54,237 nt of DNA from the NCBI GenBank assembly GCA_017429685.1, contig JAFROL010000025.1:1-54237 (forward strand), given 5' to 3'. Positions within the stretch are counted from its first letter, which is position 1, and every line of letters begins with the position of its first letter. A program made the position numbers and the translations under genes. The notes beneath the pieces were generated by a model, which had not been told where the DNA came from, searched no databases, and saw only the letters and a list, made by a program, of their open reading frames with translations. Shown in pieces: positions 14,904 to 48,351 of the stretch. Source of the stretch: Bacteroidales bacterium. Its GTDB lineage: Bacteria > Bacteroidota > Bacteroidia > Bacteroidales > P3.

Positions 14904-15536
14904 TCAGAAGCGGATGCCGAAGGTAAACTGGATGCTGCATCCAGTCATTTGCGGTGCGTCGGTGGCAGTATAGCCTAAAGCGGTAAGGCCCGCAGGCAGT
15001 TCCGCAGGTTCGCTGCCAATGTTGGCATAATAAGGCAGCTGCGCGTGCAAACCCACGAAGGTATGCTTGCTGCTTTTGTAGTTGATGCCCATCTCGAAGT
15101 TGCAGCAGAAACCAAAACGTGCGGCAGATTCAATATTGCCGGCAAATTCGTATCCACTACCGTGGAACAGCACTCCCAAAGCGGCACCAGTTTCCAGTTC
15201 AAAACGGTTACCAAGAGGAACATAGTCACGGAAGTCTGCCATAATGTCGAGGTCGAAGAAATTCTCGTCCAGCTCGCGGAACGAGGTGTTGCCACCACGC
15301 GAACCGATGGTGAGGCCGACAAAAGCGTTGTTCTTAAAACGATAGCCCAACGTGATATGTTCCGAAGGAATCATACTATAGGATTCAGTGGGGTCGACAA
15401 AGGCCGACACGGGTGCATAGTTGCCGAACTTGGAGAAACCAAGACCGACCTCGGCCATAAAGCCACCTTTCGCTTCCTGTGCGCCGCACACGGCAGCCAC
15501 GCACAGAATAGCAGTCAGAATTAATGTTTTTTTCAT
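14904..15536 (-). CDS. Small outer-membrane beta-barrel protein
   Basis: 210 residues. Signal peptide MKKTLILTAILCVAAVCGAQ, then alternating amphipathic strands (FMAEVGLGFSKFG, HITLGYRFKNNAFVGLTIG, FELETGAALGVLF, FTFGIRF) and a C-terminal Phe, as in Omp_b-brl family proteins inserted by the BAM complex. It begins 24 bp after the SDR gene and is followed by a strong terminator, so it is the last gene of that operon. Its job there is unknown; a link to the unusual lipid is a guess. Confidence 0.75.
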   Translation of the reverse strand: MKKTLILTAILCVAAVCGAQEAKGGFMAEVGLGFSKFGNYAPVSAFVDPTESYSMIPSEHITLGYRFKNNAFVGLTIGSRGGNTSFRELDENFFDLDIMADFRDYVPLGNRFELETGAALGVLFHGSGYEFAGNIESAARFGFCCNFEMGINYKSSKHTFVGLHAQLPYYANIGSEPAELPAGLTALGYTATDAPQMTGCSIQFTFGIRF

Positions 15537-15560
15537 TTCTTATCGTATTAAAAGTTTAGT

Positions 15561-16361
15561 TTACATTGGTTTAATTTTTCTTGCCAGTCGTGCGGCAAGT
15601 CCGGGGAAGTACTGCTTGATGTAGGCCATCAGCAGCTCGTAGCGACCCACAAGGACTTCGCGTTTCTTCTTATAAACCGCCTTGACGATTTTGTCGGCAG
15701 CCTGTTGCGGTGTGACGCCACCGGCCTGGCCTGCATCCATCTTGCCGTGCTGGCGGCCGTCCTTTTCGAGGGCGTACTTCGAAATGTTGGTCTGCACGCG
15801 TCCCGGACAGACGATGGTGACGCGGATATTCTGGTCGTAGGTCTCTGCCTGGACGGTCTCGAAAAAGCCATACAAGGCGTGCTTGGCCGAGCTGTAGGCA
15901 CACCGCAGCGGGAAGCCGAAACGACCCGCGATGCTGGTGGTCACAACCAGCTGTCCCCCACCCCGTTCTATCATCCGCGGCAGGATATTTTTGGTCAGGA
16001 TTACGGGGGCGAAATAGTCGATGTCCATCACCTTGCGGATGACGCGCATCTCGGTCTCGACGGTGGTGCCGCGCTGGCTGATGCCGGCATTGTTGTACAG
16101 GATGTCGATGCCGCCAAAGCGCTTCCACGCCTGCTCGGCAAGGGCGTCGAGCCCGTCGCTGTCCGACAGGTCGAAGGGCAGCGCCGCAGCATCGGGAGCG
16201 CCAAGCTCCTTGCAGCGGGCCACGACCTTTTCAAGCAGGTCGGCCTCAAGGGCGGTGACGATGACACGCGCACCTTCCTGTGCAAAACGGTAGGCCGTAG
16301 CCTCGCCAATACCCGACGAAGAGCCTGTAATCCAAACAGTTTTGTTTTCGAATTTCTTCAT
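15561..16361 (-). CDS. SDR oxidoreductase, candidate 3-ketocapnine/3-ketosphinganine-type reductase
   Basis: 266-residue classical short-chain dehydrogenase. The nucleotide motif TGSSSGIG is at residues 12-19, NNAG near 90, and the catalytic Ser and YSSAK tetrad residues follow. The C-terminal tail is basic and hydrophobic (LLMAYIKQYFPGLAARLARKIKP), as often seen in membrane-associated reductases acting on lipids. It follows an alpha-oxoamine synthase and a threonine-synthase-like gene, the set expected for sulfonolipid synthesis, where the 3-keto intermediate must be reduced. The SDR family alone does not define the substrate, so the pathway role is inferred from context. Confidence 0.9.
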   Translation of the reverse strand: MKKFENKTVWITGSSSGIGEATAYRFAQEGARVIVTALEADLLEKVVARCKELGAPDAAALPFDLSDSDGLDALAEQAWKRFGGIDILYNNAGISQRGTTVETEMRVIRKVMDIDYFAPVILTKNILPRMIERGGGQLVVTTSIAGRFGFPLRCAYSSAKHALYGFFETVQAETYDQNIRVTIVCPGRVQTNISKYALEKDGRQHGKMDAGQAGGVTPQQAADKIVKAVYKKKREVLVGRYELLMAYIKQYFPGLAARLARKIKPM

Positions 16362-16367
16362 TTTTTT

Positions 16368-16417
16368 CTAGTTTTACTAGTCCTACTAGTTCAACTAGTG
16401 ATACTAGTCACACCAGT
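16368..16417. repeat. 9-bp CTAGT array
   Basis: CTAGT recurs exactly every 9 bp at 16368, 16377, 16386, 16395 and 16404, with a degenerate CCAGT at 16413. The array fills most of the 61-bp gap between the threonine-synthase-like gene and the SDR start, directly in the SDR leader. Confidence 0.85.
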
Positions 16418-16422
16418 CTTGA

Positions 16423-17646
16423 CTAATCCACTTCCACCAACTCCCTGAACCATTGGGCGCGGTCGCAGCCCTCGCCGGTGTTGAGCAGCACGACGTCGCC
16501 GCTCTTGATTTCGCCGCGGTCCACAGCTTGGAAGAATCCGGCATAGCACACCATCGAGGCGGGGCCCATCAGCACTCCGCGGCTGGACTTCATCTCCTTG
16601 CCGTAGCTGGGCAGCTCGGCCTCCTTGACGCGGATGAAGGTGCCGCCCGAACGCTTAACCAGCGGAGCCACAAGCGGATAGTTGCCGGGGTTGGCGGCCG
16701 TCAGGATGCCTATGCGGGTCTTGATGTCCTTCTTGGCCTCATACTGCTGCTCCCACCCCTGGGGGAATCCGGCAGCCGTGGCCTTCTCCCAGGCCGTCAC
16801 CATCGGGTCGCACTCGTCCTGCTGCACCAACAGCATTCGCGGCAGCTGATATTCACCGGCCTTGTCGCCGGCCATAGCCTGCAGGTCGCGGAAGCCCTTC
16901 TCGAAGGCCAGAGGCGACGTGCCGCCAGCCACAGCCTGCATATAGACCGTGGGCAGCTGGCCCATCTGACGCAGGCACTCGAACACCACCAAACGCTTCG
17001 ACTCGATGCGCAGCGGGTCGGTATTGCCGCCACTGATCAGTACATTGTTGGTTTTATGATAGTTGACAGCCTCTTCTTTGGCAGCACCATAGCCGCCGGC
17101 CGAGACGACCACGGGCTGGCCCACCTTGCGGATGGCCTCGACCGTGGCGGGGTCGATGCAGTTGGGCGCAAACTCGGTGAAGCGGATGCCAGCCTTGGCG
17201 CTGTAGGTGGCAAAAGCCACGCCAGCGTTGCCCGTCGAGGCCAGGCAGTATTCCTTGACGCCGTTCTCTTTCAGCACCGTAGCGGCCAGCGCAGCACTGA
17301 TGTCCTTGAACGAGCCGCTGCCGCGGTTCAGGTCGTTGCGATAGACAAACACCTTGCAATCAACACCTTTACCTTTGGCATAGGTCTCCAGGTTGTCCCA
17401 CCTTTCGATAGGAATCAGGCCCTCGCCAAAACTGACCACATTCCGGCGGTCGGCAATGGGCAGCATATCGAAGTAATAGTCTTGGTACGAGTCGGTTGCA
17501 GGCTTTTCTGCGGGGGCGTGCAGCGGCTCCAGGTATTCCACCTCGGCATATCCGCTGCCGCAGTCGCACTTCTGGTCCTGACGAAACCAAGTGGCAAAGT
17601 CGGCGATGACTTTGCCACATTTCTTGCATCTAAGCTGGTATTTCAT
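16423..17646 (-). CDS. Threonine-synthase-like PLP enzyme, candidate cysteate synthase
   Basis: 407 residues, fold-type II PLP enzyme. I start at ATG 17646 (MKYQLRCKKCG); the frame is open further upstream but there encodes repeat-derived sequence. An N-terminal zinc ribbon (CKKC and CDCG, residues 7-32) is followed by NRGSGSFKD, whose Lys binds PLP, and STGNAGVAFATYSAK. This is the compact, zinc-ribbon type, unlike the long ThrC that Bacteroidetes, as I recall, use for threonine. Archaeal cysteate synthase belongs to this family, and the neighbouring oxoamine synthase and SDR make cysteate formation a reasonable reading. Threonine synthase remains the alternative. Confidence 0.85.
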   Translation of the reverse strand: MKYQLRCKKCGKVIADFATWFRQDQKCDCGSGYAEVEYLEPLHAPAEKPATDSYQDYYFDMLPIADRRNVVSFGEGLIPIERWDNLETYAKGKGVDCKVFVYRNDLNRGSGSFKDISAALAATVLKENGVKEYCLASTGNAGVAFATYSAKAGIRFTEFAPNCIDPATVEAIRKVGQPVVVSAGGYGAAKEEAVNYHKTNNVLISGGNTDPLRIESKRLVVFECLRQMGQLPTVYMQAVAGGTSPLAFEKGFRDLQAMAGDKAGEYQLPRMLLVQQDECDPMVTAWEKATAAGFPQGWEQQYEAKKDIKTRIGILTAANPGNYPLVAPLVKRSGGTFIRVKEAELPSYGKEMKSSRGVLMGPASMVCYAGFFQAVDRGEIKSGDVVLLNTGEGCDRAQWFRELVEVD

Positions 17647-17648
17647 AT

Positions 17649-17750
17649 AGTTGAAAGTTGAAAGTTGAGAGTTGAAAAACCTCAGCTTTCTTGTTCCTAA
17701 ATTAAAATGAGAGTTGAAAGTTAAAAAACCTCCAACTCTCTTGTTTCTAA
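17649..17750. repeat. 7-bp AGTTGAA array with imperfect duplication in thrC-like leader
   Basis: Four exact-period heptamers (AGTTGAA, AGTTGAA, AGTTGAG, AGTTGAA) at 17649-17676, then AGTTGAA-AGTTAAA at 17712-17725. The stretch after each block (AAAACCTC...CTTGTTCCTAA, AAAACCTC...CTTGTTTCTAA) is also duplicated. On the minus strand the unit reads TTCAACT, and the array is the leader of the threonine-synthase-like gene. Confidence 0.85.
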
Positions 17751-19016
17751 TTATTTGTGTTTGATAATATGCATATCCGGCATCGGCTTGTTGTAGACGC
17801 CTTCGTCGAGTTTCTTCTTCACCTCGCGGAACACCTCGATGGTGCGGTTGGCGTGCTCCATAGTGTGGACCGCCGTGGGGATGATGCGCAGCATAATCTG
17901 GCCTTTCGGCACCACGGGATAGACCACGATGGAGCAGAAGATGCCGTAGTTCTCGCGCAGGTCGACAACCACGTTGGTGCCCTGGTTCACGTCGCCCGGG
18001 AAGAAGACCGGCGTGATGGGGCTTTCGGTGACGCCCGTATTCAGGCCCTCGGCCTGGAGCGACTTCTGCAGGTAGGTCGACAGCTCCCACAGCTTCTCGC
18101 GGTACTCGGGATGCTGGTTGATGATTTCCAAGCGGCGCTTGACGCCCCATACGATAGGCATCGGCAGGCTCTTGGCATAGATCTGCGAGCGCATATTGAA
18201 GCGCAAGTAGGTGATGATGTCCTCGTCGTTGCAGCCGATGAAGCCGCCGATGATGGCCATCGTTTTGGCGAAGGCGCAGAAATAGAGGTCAATCTCGTCC
18301 TCGCAGTTGAAGTGCGTGTGCGTGCCGCGGCCTTCGGGACCCATAACGCCCATACCGTGCGCATCGTCGATCAGGATGCGGAAGTTGAACTCCTTCTTCA
18401 GCGCCACGATCTTGTCCAGCGCGCCCAGGTCGCCTTCCATACCGTACACGCCCTCGGTGGCCACCAGTATGCCGCCGCCCTGCTTCTCGGCCAGCGCCGT
18501 GGCCTGGGTCAGCTGCTTGCGCAGGCTCTCGATGTCGTTGTGCTGGTATTTGAAACGCTTGGCACCCGTCACGCGGAAACCGTCGATCAGGCAAGCGTGG
18601 GCCTCACTGTCGTAGACGATGACGTCGCGCAGGCTGACGATGGTGTCGAGGATGCTAATCTGACCCTGATAGCCGAAGTTGAGCAGGTAGCCGTACTTCT
18701 TGTGCGTATACTGGCACAGCATCGACTCAACCTCCTCGTGCAAAGCGGTATGTCCGCTCATCATACGGGCACCCATCGGGTAGGCAAGGCCCCAGCGGCG
18801 GGCACCCTCCTCGTCGGCAGCGCGCACCTCAGGGTTGTTGGCCAGACCCAGATAGTTGTTCAGGCTCCAGTTCAGCACCTTCTTGCCGTTGAACGTCATT
18901 TCGGGACCCAGCTCGCCCTCGAGCTTCGGAAAATAGAAATAGCCATCGGCCAGCTTGCGATACTGTCCCAGCGGACCGCCGGTCGACTCTTTGATTCTTT
19001 CAAAAATATCCTTCAT
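17751..19016 (-). CDS. Alpha-oxoamine synthase, candidate cysteate fatty-acyltransferase
   Basis: 421 residues, fold-type I PLP enzyme of the AONS/KBL/SPT family. These enzymes condense an amino acid with an acyl thioester and release CO2. Features are the N-terminal NWSLNNYLGLANNPEV, the GARMMSGHT turn, DDAHGMGVMGPEGRG and the PLP Lys in FAKTMAIIGGFIG. The sequence closely resembles the Bacteroidetes subfamily I associate with cysteate acyltransferase (capnine synthesis) of gliding and gut species. It differs clearly from the second family member at 47167. Together with the downstream PLP enzyme and SDR it gives a complete candidate route to 3-keto- then reduced capnine. Glycine C-acetyltransferase is the main alternative. 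Confidence 0.88.
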   Translation of the reverse strand: MKDIFERIKESTGGPLGQYRKLADGYFYFPKLEGELGPEMTFNGKKVLNWSLNNYLGLANNPEVRAADEEGARRWGLAYPMGARMMSGHTALHEEVESMLCQYTHKKYGYLLNFGYQGQISILDTIVSLRDVIVYDSEAHACLIDGFRVTGAKRFKYQHNDIESLRKQLTQATALAEKQGGGILVATEGVYGMEGDLGALDKIVALKKEFNFRILIDDAHGMGVMGPEGRGTHTHFNCEDEIDLYFCAFAKTMAIIGGFIGCNDEDIITYLRFNMRSQIYAKSLPMPIVWGVKRRLEIINQHPEYREKLWELSTYLQKSLQAEGLNTGVTESPITPVFFPGDVNQGTNVVVDLRENYGIFCSIVVYPVVPKGQIMLRIIPTAVHTMEHANRTIEVFREVKKKLDEGVYNKPMPDMHIIKHK

Positions 19017-19099
19017 ATTGTTTAATTTTTATTTAGATTTCAGTGTAACACTATCATTCACAGCCGCTAACGCCCAGTTGCGCGCGACACTTCAAAAGG

Positions 19100-19130
19100 C
19101 AAAAATACTAAAATTTCTTAAAACCGCAAG
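19100..19130 (-). promoter_or_regulatory. Promoter of the candidate sulfonolipid operon
   Basis: Minus-strand -7 box TATTTTTG at 19100-19107, with CTTG (a near match to TTTG) at 19127-19130 after 19 bp. The start codon at 19016 leaves a leader of about 75 nt. Confidence 0.65.
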
Positions 19131-19590: not shown

Positions 19591-19746
19591 AATTTGAAGA
19601 TTTTTCAGACAAGATTTGAAGATTTTTCAGACAAGATTTGAAGATTTTTTCAACAAGATTTGAAGATTTTCCAAACAAGATTTGAAGATTAATTTACATA
19701 CTTTTGAAGATTTTTCTTTGGAGAATTGAAGATTTTTTGTATTTTT
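19591..19746. repeat. Seven 22-bp direct repeats upstream of the DUF4143 ATPase gene
   Basis: The core TTTGAAGATT starts at 19593, 19615, 19637, 19659, 19681, 19703 and (as ATTGAAGATT) 19725, an exact 22-bp period. Units are about TTTGAAGATTTTTCAGACAA, with the last two more diverged. The array runs into the promoter of the next gene, so both promoter boxes lie in or at its end. Confidence 0.92.
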
Positions 19747-22023: not shown

Positions 22024-23283
22024 ATGAAAGTCTTCAAATTCGGCGGGGCATCCGTCAACAGCGCAGAAGCCATCCGCAACGTGGCGGAAATCGTAAGGCA
22101 ATATCTTGAAACGCCACTGGTTGTAGTCATTTCGGCAATGGGCAAGACGACCAACCTGCTGGAAAAGGTGGTGCCCGGCGTGCCGGCGTCGGACAACGAG
22201 CGGCGAAAACTGCTGCAGCAAAACACTGACTATCACCTGTCGATTGCCGACAGCCTGTTTGCCGACAAGGGCGATGCGACCTACAGGCGGCTGCGCGAGC
22301 TATTCGGCCAGCTCGATGAGGTGTCGGCCCGCAAAGCGGCCAACTACAACTTCGACTACGACCAGACGGTCTCGTTTGGCGAGCTGATTTCGACCACGCT
22401 CATATCGGGATACCTTAACAGTGTTGGAATCAGCAATGTATGGATCGATGTGCGCGACGTGATCCGCACCAACGAGAACTACCGTGAAGGCATCGTCGAC
22501 TTCGACGCAACCCGCCGTCAAACCAACTCTCGACTATCAACTCTCGACTATCAACTCATTATCACTCAAGGTTTCATCGCCGGTACCGCCGCCGGGACAA
22601 CCACCACGCTGGGGCGCGAGGGCAGCGACTACTCGGCCTCGATCCTTTCCTACTGCCTCGACGCCGATAATATGACCATCTGGAAGGACGTGCCGGGATT
22701 CCTCAACGCCGACCCCAAGTTTTTCGCCAACACCATAAAAATAAACAAGATACCCTTCAACGAGGCCATCGAGCTCGCCTACTACGGCGCCTCGGTAATC
22801 CACCCCAAGACCGTCAAACCTATCCAAAACAAGGGTATCCAACTGAATATAAAGTCTTTCCTCGACCCTTCGGCCGCAGGTTCGGTCATCGGGCCTTTCG
22901 ATTCGATAGAGCCACTGACGCCGCTTTACATATTCAAAAACAACCAGATACTCATCTCCATACAGCCCAAGGACTTCTCCTTCATCGCCGAAGAAAACCT
23001 GCAGACCATCTTCGCCGTACTGGCCGAGCTGAACATCCGCGTCAACCTGATGCAGAATTCGGCCCTGAGTTTCTCGCTCTGCCTCGACTACAACGAGATA
23101 CTGCTCGACAAGATACGCGAGCGGCTCGAATCGCAGTTCCGGCTGGTTTATAACACAGGTTTGCAGCTGATTACGATACGCTACTATAACCAGCAGATAA
23201 TCGACGAGATTGTCGATGGGCGAACGATACTGCTGCAGCAACGTTCGCGAACGACAACGCAGCTATTAGTTGATTCCAAATGA
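22024..23283 (+). CDS. lysC: Aspartate kinase with heptad repeat in coding sequence
   Basis: 419 residues. It phosphorylates aspartate, the first step toward lysine/DAP, threonine and methionine. The N-terminal KVFKFGGASV motif, VVVISAMGKTTNLLE, TTTLGREGSDYSA and the two C-terminal ACT domains (about 295-410) mark a monofunctional aspartokinase. Residues about 166-178 (TNSRLSTLDYQLI) are encoded by five 7-bp units at 22524-22558. The motif ITQGFIAGT directly follows, so the array replaces a variable loop. It overlaps the nuclease gene by 4 bp (ATGA). Confidence 0.95.
   Translation: MKVFKFGGASVNSAEAIRNVAEIVRQYLETPLVVVISAMGKTTNLLEKVVPGVPASDNERRKLLQQNTDYHLSIADSLFADKGDATYRRLRELFGQLDEVSARKAANYNFDYDQTVSFGELISTTLISGYLNSVGISNVWIDVRDVIRTNENYREGIVDFDATRRQTNSRLSTLDYQLIITQGFIAGTAAGTTTTLGREGSDYSASILSYCLDADNMTIWKDVPGFLNADPKFFANTIKINKIPFNEAIELAYYGASVIHPKTVKPIQNKGIQLNIKSFLDPSAAGSVIGPFDSIEPLTPLYIFKNNQILISIQPKDFSFIAEENLQTIFAVLAELNIRVNLMQNSALSFSLCLDYNEILLDKIRERLESQFRLVYNTGLQLITIRYYNQQIIDEIVDGRTILLQQRSRTTTQLLVDSK
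22524..22558 (+). repeat. Five 7-bp units inside lysC
   Basis: CAACTCT, CGACTAT, CAACTCT, CGACTAT, CAACTCA. The unit is close to the TTCAACT heptamer of the thrC-like leader array read on its coding strand. Confidence 0.85.
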
Positions 23284-44835: not shown

Positions 44836-45636
44836 ATGAGTAAAGTCGTTTTTATATCCGGAGCCTCGTCGGGTTTTGGCAAGGCAATAGCAGAACTTCT
44901 GGCGTCGAAAGGCTACATCGTCTACGGCACCAGCCGCAAGAGCATAACGCACAGTCAGATACACTTCCTGTATATGGATTTGCAGGAACGCGAATCTGTC
45001 AGAAAGGCCATAGGCCGTGTAGTTGAAGAACAAGGACGTATCGACGTGGTTATCAACAATGCCGGAATGGGGATAGGGGGGTCGCTGGAGCTGGCCACCG
45101 ACGAAGAGATTGACATACAGATGGGCACCAATTTCCGCGGCTGCGTGAGTGTATGCCAGGACGTGCTGCCCGTGATGCGGAAGCAGGGCGGCGGACAAAT
45201 AATCAACCTGAGCTCGATTGGTGGAATTATGGGCCTGCCTTACCAGGGCTATTACTCAGCCTCGAAATTTGCCATCGAGGGCTTCACCGAGGCGCTGGCG
45301 GCAGAGGTCCGCGGCTTTGGCATAAAAGTGTCAATGGTCGAGCCCGGCGATTTCGCCACCAATTTCACGGCCCGGCGCAAGATATCGGAGGCGACGCAGA
45401 AAAGCGCCGCCTACGGCGACAGTTTTGCCCGCAGCCTGTCACTTATCGAAAAAGAGGAAAACGGCGGCCTAAAGCCCGAAAAACTGGCCAAAACAGTGGA
45501 GAAAATCATCCGCAGCCGTCACCCGCGCCTACGCTACGTCGTGGCCAACCTCGAGCAGAAGCTTTCAGTCCTCCTGAAACGCATCATCCCTAGCAACTGG
45601 ATGGTGTCGATTTTGAGGAACTATTATAAGGTTTAA
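44836..45636 (+). CDS. SDR family oxidoreductase
   Basis: 266 residues. ISGASSGFGKA at residues 7-17 binds NAD(P); NNAG is near 72, then LSSIGG and the catalytic YSASK near 145. The C-terminal end is basic and amphipathic (LEQKLSVLLKRIIPSNWMVSILRNYYK), suggesting membrane contact. It lies 1.5 kb from serine palmitoyltransferase but on the other strand. A 3-ketosphinganine reductase role is conceivable but unproven. Substrate undetermined. Confidence 0.9.
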   Translation: MSKVVFISGASSGFGKAIAELLASKGYIVYGTSRKSITHSQIHFLYMDLQERESVRKAIGRVVEEQGRIDVVINNAGMGIGGSLELATDEEIDIQMGTNFRGCVSVCQDVLPVMRKQGGGQIINLSSIGGIMGLPYQGYYSASKFAIEGFTEALAAEVRGFGIKVSMVEPGDFATNFTARRKISEATQKSAAYGDSFARSLSLIEKEENGGLKPEKLAKTVEKIIRSRHPRLRYVVANLEQKLSVLLKRIIPSNWMVSILRNYYKV

Positions 45637-46029: not shown

Positions 46030-47157
46030 TCAAATCTCCTTACCGAAAACGGCGCGTTTCATCAGCTCTTCGGTCTGGTAGGTGGTGCCCCAAATCTTTT
46101 CGGCTTCGTTGCCGATGATCTGTGGGTTGGTATAAGCCCAGATGACGTTGTTTTTGATGGCATTGCGGTTCATTTCGGCATAGTAGATGGAGTGCACGCC
46201 GCGCTTCTGCCATTCGGGATGCACGCCGTTGAGCAGCAGGTCGATGGTGTCGTATTTGCGCAGGGCGCGAAGCAGGTGGTACCAACCGAAAGGGAAGAGG
46301 CGTCCGTTGGCCTTCTGATAGGCCTCGGTGAGGCTGGGAATGCTGAGGCCAAAGGCCACCAGGTTGTCGTCCTGGTCGACGACGAAATTGACAAAATCGA
46401 GGTTCACGAAGGGGAAATACTCCTTTATGTAGACATCGATTTCCTTCTCGGTCATAGGGACGAAATCGTAGAGGTCCTTGAACGAGTCGTTGAGCGTGTG
46501 GAAAAACTTGTGCGCATAAGGATAGACCTCTTTGCGCTTCTTGAATTTCAGCAATTTGAGGTTGTAGCGCTCCAGGATGAGCTGGTTGATGCGCGCCACC
46601 TTGTCGGGGATAGGTTGGCTGGCCGGCATCTTGTACTGCTGCCAGCGGCAAAGAATCTTGCAATCAAGGCGTTCGATGAAATCGATATAATACTTGGGAT
46701 TGTAGAGCGTGCTGAGGTTTTGGCGGGCGTCGAAGCCTTCGATTACCCAGCATTCCTTGTCCATATCGGTAAAGCCGAACGGGCCCTCGATTTCGGTCAT
46801 TCCCTTGCTGCGCCCATACTCCACAACCTTGTCGAACAGGGCCTTGCAGACATCGAAATCCTCGACGAAATCGAACCATCCGAAGCGGACAGCCTTCTTG
46901 TTCCAATGCTCGTTGACTGTGTGGTTGATGATGGCAGCCACGCGACCCACAACCTTGCCGTCGACGGTGGCGAGGTACATCTGCAGGTCGCTATGCTCGA
47001 GCGATGGGTTCTTGTCGGTCAGCAAAGCGCGTTCGTCGCGGTTCAGCGGCGGCACGTATGTCGGCACGCCTTTGAAAAGTTTGTTGGGAAAAGCTATGAA
47101 CTTGTTAAGGTCACGGCGACCTTTAACCTCACTGATGACAATATTGTTCATATTCAA
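46030..47157 (-). CDS. GNAT-like protein encoded beside SPT
   Basis: 375 residues, cytoplasmic. The N-terminal part (FIAFPNKLFKGVPTYVPPLNRDERALL) and GKVVGRVAAIIN match the large GNAT-like proteins found next to serine palmitoyltransferase in Bacteroides, as I recall. The remaining domain contains GPFGFTDMDKECWVIEGFD and a second acetyltransferase-like half (FVVDQDDNLVAFGLSIPS, LLNGVHPEWQKRGVHSIYY). The gap to the SPT gene upstream is 9 bp, so they are one transcript. A part in sphingolipid synthesis, such as N-acylation, is a fair inference from context. Confidence 0.82.
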   Translation of the reverse strand: MNMNNIVISEVKGRRDLNKFIAFPNKLFKGVPTYVPPLNRDERALLTDKNPSLEHSDLQMYLATVDGKVVGRVAAIINHTVNEHWNKKAVRFGWFDFVEDFDVCKALFDKVVEYGRSKGMTEIEGPFGFTDMDKECWVIEGFDARQNLSTLYNPKYYIDFIERLDCKILCRWQQYKMPASQPIPDKVARINQLILERYNLKLLKFKKRKEVYPYAHKFFHTLNDSFKDLYDFVPMTEKEIDVYIKEYFPFVNLDFVNFVVDQDDNLVAFGLSIPSLTEAYQKANGRLFPFGWYHLLRALRKYDTIDLLLNGVHPEWQKRGVHSIYYAEMNRNAIKNNVIWAYTNPQIIGNEAEKIWGTTYQTEELMKRAVFGKEI

Positions 47158-47166
47158 TAATAAAGT

Positions 47167-48351
47167 TTACAAAAGTCCAAGTTTCTTGAAGCATTTGACC
47201 GTCTTGTCGACAGCAAAGTCGACCTGCTCGATGGTGTGCGTAGCCATCCAAGCCAGGCGGATAAGTGTGTCCTCGGGCGGCACAGCCGGCGAGATGACGG
47301 GGTTGACGAAGACACCCTCGTCGAGCAGCATACGGGTGACCATAAAGGTCTTCTCGTTGTCGCGCACATAGAGTGGTATGATCGGCGTTTCGGTGTTGCC
47401 GATTTCGAAACCGGCCTCGCGGAACGATTTGAGTGCATAGTTGGCCACCTTCCACAAGTTCTCCTGGCGTTCGGGCTCGCTGCGCATAACCTCGATGGCG
47501 GCGATGACCGATGCCGTTGCCGACGGCGGGATGCTGGCGGTGAAGATGTAGGGGCGCACGTTGTGGCGCATCCAGTTGATGGTGTCCCTGTCGGCGGCGA
47601 TAAAGCCTCCGATTGAGGCCAGCGATTTGGAGAAGGTACCCATTATGAGTTCCGTTTTGTCGAGCAGTCCGAAGTGGTCGGTGACGCCGCGGCCTTCGCG
47701 GCCGAAGACGCCGAGACCGTGGGCCTCGTCGACCATCAGCGTGGCCTGGTATTTGTCGCAGAGCGCCTGTATTTCGGGCAGTTTAGCCACATCGCCCTCC
47801 ATACTGAACACACCGTCGGTTACCACCAGTTTGCCAGCCTCGAGCGGGCAACGCTGAAGAACACGTTCAAGGTCGTTGAGGTCACTGTGGCGGTATTTAA
47901 GAGTCTGAGCGAAAGTCAGACGCTTGCCCTCGATGATGGAGGCGTGGTCCATCTCGTCGAAGATGACATAGTCGCCACGACCCGTAACACAGGGAATGAC
48001 ACCGGAATTGGCCTGAAAACCCGCCGAGAAAAGCATCACGCCGTCTTTGCCAAGGAATTCAGACAAAATGTTTTCGAGCTTGATATGAATGTCGAGAGTG
48101 CCGTTGAGGAAAGGAGAGCCTGCACAACCGGTGCCGTACTTGTCGATTGCGGCTTTAGCAGCCTCTTTGATTTTTGGATGATTGGTAAGTCCTAAATAAC
48201 TGTTGGAACCAAGCATCAGGACTTTACGTCCGTTCATAAGAACCTCTGTATCCTGGTCGCTTGAAATCTCTCTGAAATAAGGATAAACCCCCTTGGCTTT
48301 TGCCTCTTGGGGAGCAGTGTATCGCGCAAGTTTCTGTTGCAGTGGCTTCAT
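47167..48351 (-). CDS. spt: Serine palmitoyltransferase
   Basis: 394 residues, fold-type I PLP enzyme of the alpha-oxoamine synthase family, first step of sphingolipid synthesis. Key segments: SNSYLGLTNHPKI, CAGSPFLNGTLDIH, DEMDHASIIEG, VDEAHGLGVFGREGRGV and the PLP Lys in GTFSKSLASIGGFIA. The sequence closely follows the Bacteroides SPT I remember, including the N-terminal GVYPYFREI segment and the C-terminal RLAWMATHT. Complete. It precedes the acetyltransferase-like gene by 9 bp. It is clearly different from the oxoamine synthase at 17751, so two such enzymes are present. Confidence 0.92.
   Translation of the reverse strand: MKPLQQKLARYTAPQEAKAKGVYPYFREISSDQDTEVLMNGRKVLMLGSNSYLGLTNHPKIKEAAKAAIDKYGTGCAGSPFLNGTLDIHIKLENILSEFLGKDGVMLFSAGFQANSGVIPCVTGRGDYVIFDEMDHASIIEGKRLTFAQTLKYRHSDLNDLERVLQRCPLEAGKLVVTDGVFSMEGDVAKLPEIQALCDKYQATLMVDEAHGLGVFGREGRGVTDHFGLLDKTELIMGTFSKSLASIGGFIAADRDTINWMRHNVRPYIFTASIPPSATASVIAAIEVMRSEPERQENLWKVANYALKSFREAGFEIGNTETPIIPLYVRDNEKTFMVTRMLLDEGVFVNPVISPAVPPEDTLIRLAWMATHTIEQVDFAVDKTVKCFKKLGLL

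Follow-up and report, generated by a model that had tools for sequence, protein, structure and literature searches.

The minus strand of contig JAFROL010000025.1 from an uncultured gut Bacteroidales bacterium (assembly GCA_017429685.1; host genome 96% complete) carries a group of four genes, which we read, at a probability of roughly 0.85, as an operon that would make capnine, the sulfonolipid base. The whole stretch of DNA analysed, 54,237 nt, is referred to below as the window. Gene 1 (17751-19016; 421 aa) encodes a predicted cysteate fatty-acyltransferase of the SulA/CapB type, and gene 2 (16423-17646; 407 aa; within a longer open reading frame extending to 18150), called type B here together with its relatives, a threonine-synthase-like pyridoxal 5'-phosphate (PLP) enzyme with zinc-ribbon cysteines and a putative cysteate synthase. 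They are followed by gene 3 (15561-16361; 266 aa), encoding a short-chain dehydrogenase (SDR) and candidate 3-ketocapnine reductase, and by gene 4 (14904-15536; 210 aa), encoding a small β-barrel outer-membrane protein that is probably co-transcribed. The initial annotation of this DNA had described four such reading frames on one strand; all are present on the minus strand, and their domains (Aminotran_1_2, PALP, adh_short and OMP_b-brl, for genes 1 to 4) agree with the calls made then.

The promoter and terminator that the same annotation had placed near 19100 and 14843 were also recovered on the minus strand. The former corresponds to a site at 19129-19100 of the form TTG-N19-TAnnTTTG, which we take to be the Bacteroidota-type promoter consensus and which occurs eight times in the window, against 0.54 expected by chance; a sigma-70 promoter scan listed no site at 19100-19129. 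The latter is an intrinsic-terminator-like hairpin at 14882-14848 with a 15-pair stem and a T-run (z -4.5). From this layout we infer a single transcript of four genes. Short repeats, ACTAGT-like and AGTTGAA-like, occupy the gap between genes 2 and 3 (16363-16408) and that between genes 1 and 2 (17649-17740).

Judged by its sequence, gene 1 is a cysteate fatty-acyltransferase of the SulA/CapB type. It matched SulA of Alistipes finegoldii (alfi_1224; PDB 7u7h) over its full length with 582 bits and PDB 28eh ('Cysteate-C-fatty acyltransferase') with 521 bits, as against 240 bits for serine palmitoyltransferase (SPT). In a tree of 16 rows, from which the sequence of locus L099 was excluded as too short and in which the two Escherichia coli rows form long branches, gene 1 fell into a group of 12 rows (support 100/100) that holds 7u7h and 28eh and is separate from SPT and from E. 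coli Kbl and BioF, so that the cysteate acyltransferase proposed by the initial annotation clusters with characterized enzymes of that activity. All seven SulA residues considered (Asn53, His140, Asp217, His220, Lys251, Lys281 and Arg376) are kept in gene 1, and every one of the 102 distinct SulA-like matches that reached 300 bits in the loci examined has both Lys281 and the PLP lysine, Lys251. It differs from A. finegoldii SulA at position 248, where the PLP-phosphate-binding Thr is replaced by Ala; this Ala was present in 55 of 57 distinct SulA proteins of type-B1 loci, the window included, and in 8 of 36 others, while Thr248 was retained in all nine SulA proteins of type-B2 loci. Within the same operon SulA appears to evolve more slowly than type B, with 90-96% identity to the window's protein in four genus members versus 61-84% for type B (G000, G202, G203, G208, G217).

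A sphingolipid role for the operon, with gene 1 as SPT and gene 3 as ketosphinganine reductase, would fit the shared fold and reaction type and the placing of an SDR reductase beside an oxoamine synthase, but is exceedingly improbable. Gene 1 reached only 295 bits with the SPT model NF047600 (cut-off 640), a model that another gene of the window, a true SPT at 47167-48351, matched with 658 bits; a KdsR-like reductase (44836-45636; 391 bits, cut-off 400) already lies near that SPT. Moreover, gene 1 carries Lys at the SulA-specific position 281, where the window's SPT has Ala; Lys281 is proposed as discriminator between SulA and SPT in the portions of Radka et al. (2022; PMC9304779) consulted. 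SPT as the identity of gene 1 was rejected on the missed cut-off and on Lys281.

Gene 2 is probably a cysteate synthase, and of a new type. Its best curated model was the threonine synthase PRK08197, with 141 bits where the cut-off is 303; with PDB 9k3c, of the archaeal type of cysteate synthase, it reached 31 bits, compared with 543 bits for an archaeal-type Bacteroidales protein (locus L036). The zinc ribbon noted initially is borne out by four cysteines (C7, C10, C27 and C29) invariant in all 15 aligned type-B proteins. In an unrooted tree of 39 proteins, which gives no nearest pair among its groups, type B (18 proteins; support 100/99), the archaeal type with 9k3c (13) and annotated threonine synthases (8) formed three separate supported groups. 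The earlier proposal of a cysteate synthase thus held in one respect, since gene 2 lies outside the eight threonine synthases, but not in the other, as it lies outside the archaeal-type clade too, and the assignment of activity therefore rests on context.

Gene 2 might instead be a threonine synthase that stands beside sulA by chance: PRK08197 is the best curated model for gene 2, and a gene that by eye encodes an aspartokinase is found close by at 22024-23283. Besides the missed cut-off and the separate clade, however, homoserine dehydrogenase (PF00742) had no match in the host genome and was found in 14 of 14 control genomes. ThrC likewise had no match at E ≤ 10 in the host genome and was found in 14 of 14 controls, in a screen that misses remote kin (gene 2 itself was unlisted, although it scores 54 bits with that model), and gene 2 was the sole match to the PALP family in the host genome screen. 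A role in threonine synthesis is therefore unlikely, and the chance neighbour very improbable; threonine synthase was rejected for gene 2 on the missed cut-offs, the separate clade and the homoserine dehydrogenase not found.

Type B shares with the archaeal-type cysteate synthase (TIGR03844, 9k3c) a threonine-synthase-like PALP fold, but differs from it by forming a separate clade, by its zinc-ribbon cysteines and by often adjoining sulA. The phosphoserine-dependent CapA of Capnocytophaga presumably catalyses the same reaction as type B; in work of Liu et al. from 2022 it is said to be cystathionine-β-synthase-like, whereas type B matches no model of that name, a contrast drawn by description only. 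According to the parts of a review seen by us (PMC10191378), cysteate is made in Alistipes and Odoribacter by a homologue of the archaeal enzyme and in Capnocytophaga by CapA; in the text available of its source for the first two genera (PMC9304779), the terms 'cysteate synthase' and 'archaea' are both absent. Should the review be correct, type B would represent a third way of making cysteate.

To place the operon in its order we surveyed 198 Bacteroidales genomes. SulA was present in 140, a TIGR03844-type cysteate synthase in 51 (50 above the cut-off plus one partial protein of 312 bits, in G110, which was counted in) and type B in 40 (a match of 84 bits with one stop, in G064, being excluded and one of 98 bits, in G128, added). 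The two enzyme types never occurred in the same genome (0/198 versus 10.3 expected; P 1.3e-6, uncorrected for kinship). SulA accompanied the archaeal type in 47 of 51 genomes. Gene position is stronger evidence than co-presence for the tie between type B and sulA: where both are present, type B lies at most 11 kb from sulA in 15 of 33 genomes and the archaeal type in none of 47.

Neighbourhoods were then compared at 80 named loci from 77 assemblies, the best of 341 relatives, mostly of uncultured Bacteroidales and many from the guts of sheep, goat, yak, water buffalo, deer and horse. SulA is encoded at most 1 kb upstream of type B on the same strand in 63 of 79 testable loci, and an SDR at most 3 kb downstream on the same strand in 61 of 78, so the neighbourhood conservation and the SDR's membership of the operon that the initial annotation looked for are both present, and sulA, type B and the SDR gene form a conserved module. 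The order sulA-type B-SDR is found at the loci of G081, G185, G202, G203 and G208 and, with inserted sequence, in G120 and G217. Within the genus, type B is carried by five of 25 members and SulA by exactly those five; in a wider draw of the genus SulA occurs in seven of 31 genomes, with type B adjacent in both extra members. The product of the module is most likely capnine, made from phosphoserine, sulfite and acyl-acyl carrier protein (acyl-ACP). Genes for AMP-binding (acyl-activating-like) proteins of 554 or 594 aa adjoin the operon in some relatives (L048 3949-5613, domain-checked; L156-L158, L170, L122, L126 and L140, identified by eye).

This distribution also bears on whether gene 2 could be a cysteine synthase using phosphoserine and sulfide, the cysteate then coming from elsewhere. 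The host genome yielded no further PALP enzyme and therefore no cysteine synthase of the ordinary kind, and gene 2 has a weak match (19.5 bits) to the SbnA family, which is presumably phosphoserine-using. Such a role would, however, leave unaccounted that type B and sulA are present or absent together in the genus and that, across the order, type B and the archaeal-type cysteate synthase never occur in one genome, and none of the 20 NCBIfam families matched by gene 2 is named cysteine synthase or cystathionine β-synthase; we regard it as unlikely and prefer cysteate synthase.

Gene 3 matched adh_short with 181 bits and the PRK06181-type SDR model with 235 bits, above its cut-off of 215, and its translation carries TGSSSGIG, NNAG, S and YSSAK, which we take to be the SDR cofactor and catalytic motifs. 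It is conserved as the third gene and therefore appears, by position and family, to be the best candidate for the 3-ketocapnine reductase. The reductases CapC/KCR are likewise SDR proteins; gene 3 differs in sharing an operon with the first two genes.

The β-barrel gene looks like a local addition. It was found in four of the 80 loci, 74 of which are long enough to show one (homologues weaker than E 1e-5 would escape), and in all four type B is at least 95% identical to the window's; elsewhere the SDR gene is followed by genes of various other kinds. Being the fourth gene of the same apparent transcript, it might export or insert the sulfonolipid as a further pathway member, in keeping with the outer-membrane location of sulfonolipids given in the consulted part of PMC9304779, but the distribution makes this highly unlikely. 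The initial annotation had listed the β-barrel as fourth gene and as not an established pathway member; as a conserved member it was rejected on its presence in 4 of 74 testable loci.

Taken together as a sulfonolipid-base operon, gene 2 would convert O-phosphoserine and sulfite into L-cysteate by a PLP-dependent β-replacement, gene 1, from its close similarity to SulA, would join cysteate and acyl-ACP to give 3-ketocapnine with loss of CO2, and gene 3, from its position and family, would reduce 3-ketocapnine with NAD(P)H to capnine. N-acylation would fall to an enzyme encoded elsewhere, and the analysis identified no N-acyltransferase. The initial annotation had the operon supplying the three steps in order: the three-enzyme operon is well supported, but the genes follow one another as steps 2, 1 and 3. 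The two placements that it had set against a sulfonolipid role did not occur, gene 1 lying apart from E. coli KBL/AONS and gene 2 outside the threonine synthases compared.

Several observations weigh against this interpretation. SulA is not significantly more frequent in genomes with type B (33/40) than in the rest (107/158; P 0.08); seven of the 40 type-B genomes have no SulA match, three of these being at least 95% complete, and 60 of the 140 SulA genomes have neither type B nor the archaeal type. At 11 of the 80 named loci no SulA was found, six of these 11 having 10 kb of sequence upstream, and many of the neighbourhoods belong to closely related genomes and are non-independent, no P value being corrected for kinship. 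Gene 2 reached 101 bits with TIGR03844 (cut-off 324.9), and the limit of the ThrC screen given above belongs here as well. A strong hairpin, absent from the initial annotation, lies between genes 1 and 2 (17740-17709; z -5.7), a possible attenuator, and read-through into gene 2 may therefore be attenuated. The reductase call for gene 3 rests on position; two type-B1 loci (L051, L053) had no SDR nearby, and, in the sections of Wu et al. (2024; PMC11211663) consulted, A. finegoldii and Chryseobacterium gleum encode their active reductases away from the other two genes, without clustering.

The window holds sulfonolipid and sphingolipid genes within 54 kb. Possible mutual exclusion of the two lipid classes is raised in the part of the review seen by us (PMC10191378). 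Over the order, an SPT-like match (E ≤ 1e-150) was present in 29 of 140 SulA genomes versus 34 of 58 SulA-less ones; SulA and SPT tend to occur in different genomes without being exclusive. Between the window's SPT and its KdsR-like gene lies a 375-aa gene (46030-47157) with no Pfam or NCBIfam match.

A heterodisulfide-reductase-like (Hdr-like) cluster is a candidate source of the sulfite. It comprises HdrA-, HdrB- and two HdrC-like genes and a long Fe-S/CCG protein, mostly with a glyoxalase-like gene, and adjoins sulA and type B in four of six type-B1 loci outside the genus (L049, L050, L052 and L053; not L048 or L051) and in L097 within it. At least two subunits were found within 16 of the 80 named loci. 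Loci that carry the cluster also include L129, L131-L134 and L159. Among the 31 genus genomes, the cluster's 597-aa protein occurs in six of seven SulA-positive and none of 24 SulA-negative ones (Fisher P 9.5e-6, uncorrected for kinship), G217 having SulA and no match to it. In the host genome the cluster lies outside the window, on contig C15 (L107 4115-10269), and its link with sulA is therefore not only one of neighbourhood. Eight type-B2 loci with sulA, three type-B2 loci without it and 17 sulA loci of genomes lacking type B showed no Hdr gene.

The cluster resembles sHdr systems in its short HdrA (360 aa in the host genome), which lacks the extra domains of methanogen HdrA, in its HdrB-like and two HdrC-like proteins and in the gene order C1-B1-A-C2-B2 of L052 and L053, which we take to be that of sHdr. 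The HdrA of L053 matched PDB 6tjr, presumably sHdrA, with 186 bits over residues 4-337 of 349. In contrast, HdrA chains of methanogens equal or exceed that score (up to 203 bits, across some 230 residues), the HdrB-like protein matches methanogen HdrB only, and the host order is C1-C2-B2-B1-A. The sHdr complex includes a soluble HdrB2; the 'HdrB2' found here is much longer (590-628 aa; 628 in the host genome), with a long N-terminal part that by eye is membrane-spanning. In the text consulted of PMC12423496, sHdr complexes release sulfite and lbpA is the lipoate-binding protein gene of sHdr systems. As a hypothesis, the cluster may feed sulfite to gene 2. It is possible, and put forward tentatively, that type B evolved independently, out of the threonine-synthase branch, into a third kind of cysteate synthase, paired with sulA and with an operon-tracking sHdr-like complex that oxidizes sulfane sulfur to its sulfite, by which these anaerobes would supply themselves with sulfite for an outer-membrane lipid. 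Among the papers available to our search, none joined 'sulfonolipid' and 'heterodisulfide'.

The locus joins a known lipid class to a new gene arrangement, a cysteate synthase that is probably of a new type and a redox partner that may supply sulfite; the sequences show the gene identities, their conserved order and their co-occurrence, and the activities are predicted from them. The supply of cysteate and sulfite for sulfonolipids in many Bacteroidales is not yet settled. The three genes of the module offer a defined set for heterologous reconstitution and single out a reductase from genomic context, paralogues at unlinked sites having been screened in previous studies. PMC9304779 and PMC11211663, in the portions seen, connect gut sulfonolipids with inflammation of the host.

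The glyoxalase-like protein, of about 356 aa, is strongly conserved and was seen near the Hdr-like cluster or, even where no Hdr genes were seen, near sulA (L148 4797-5867; L107 9202-10269 in the host genome; also L055, L056, L059-L061 and L082). It had only two weak PDB matches (E 0.04), and the host copy had no NCBIfam match at E 1e-10. Upstream of the operon, a tandem array of a 22-bp repeat (ATTTGAAGATTTTTCAGACAAG) occupies window positions 19592-19738.

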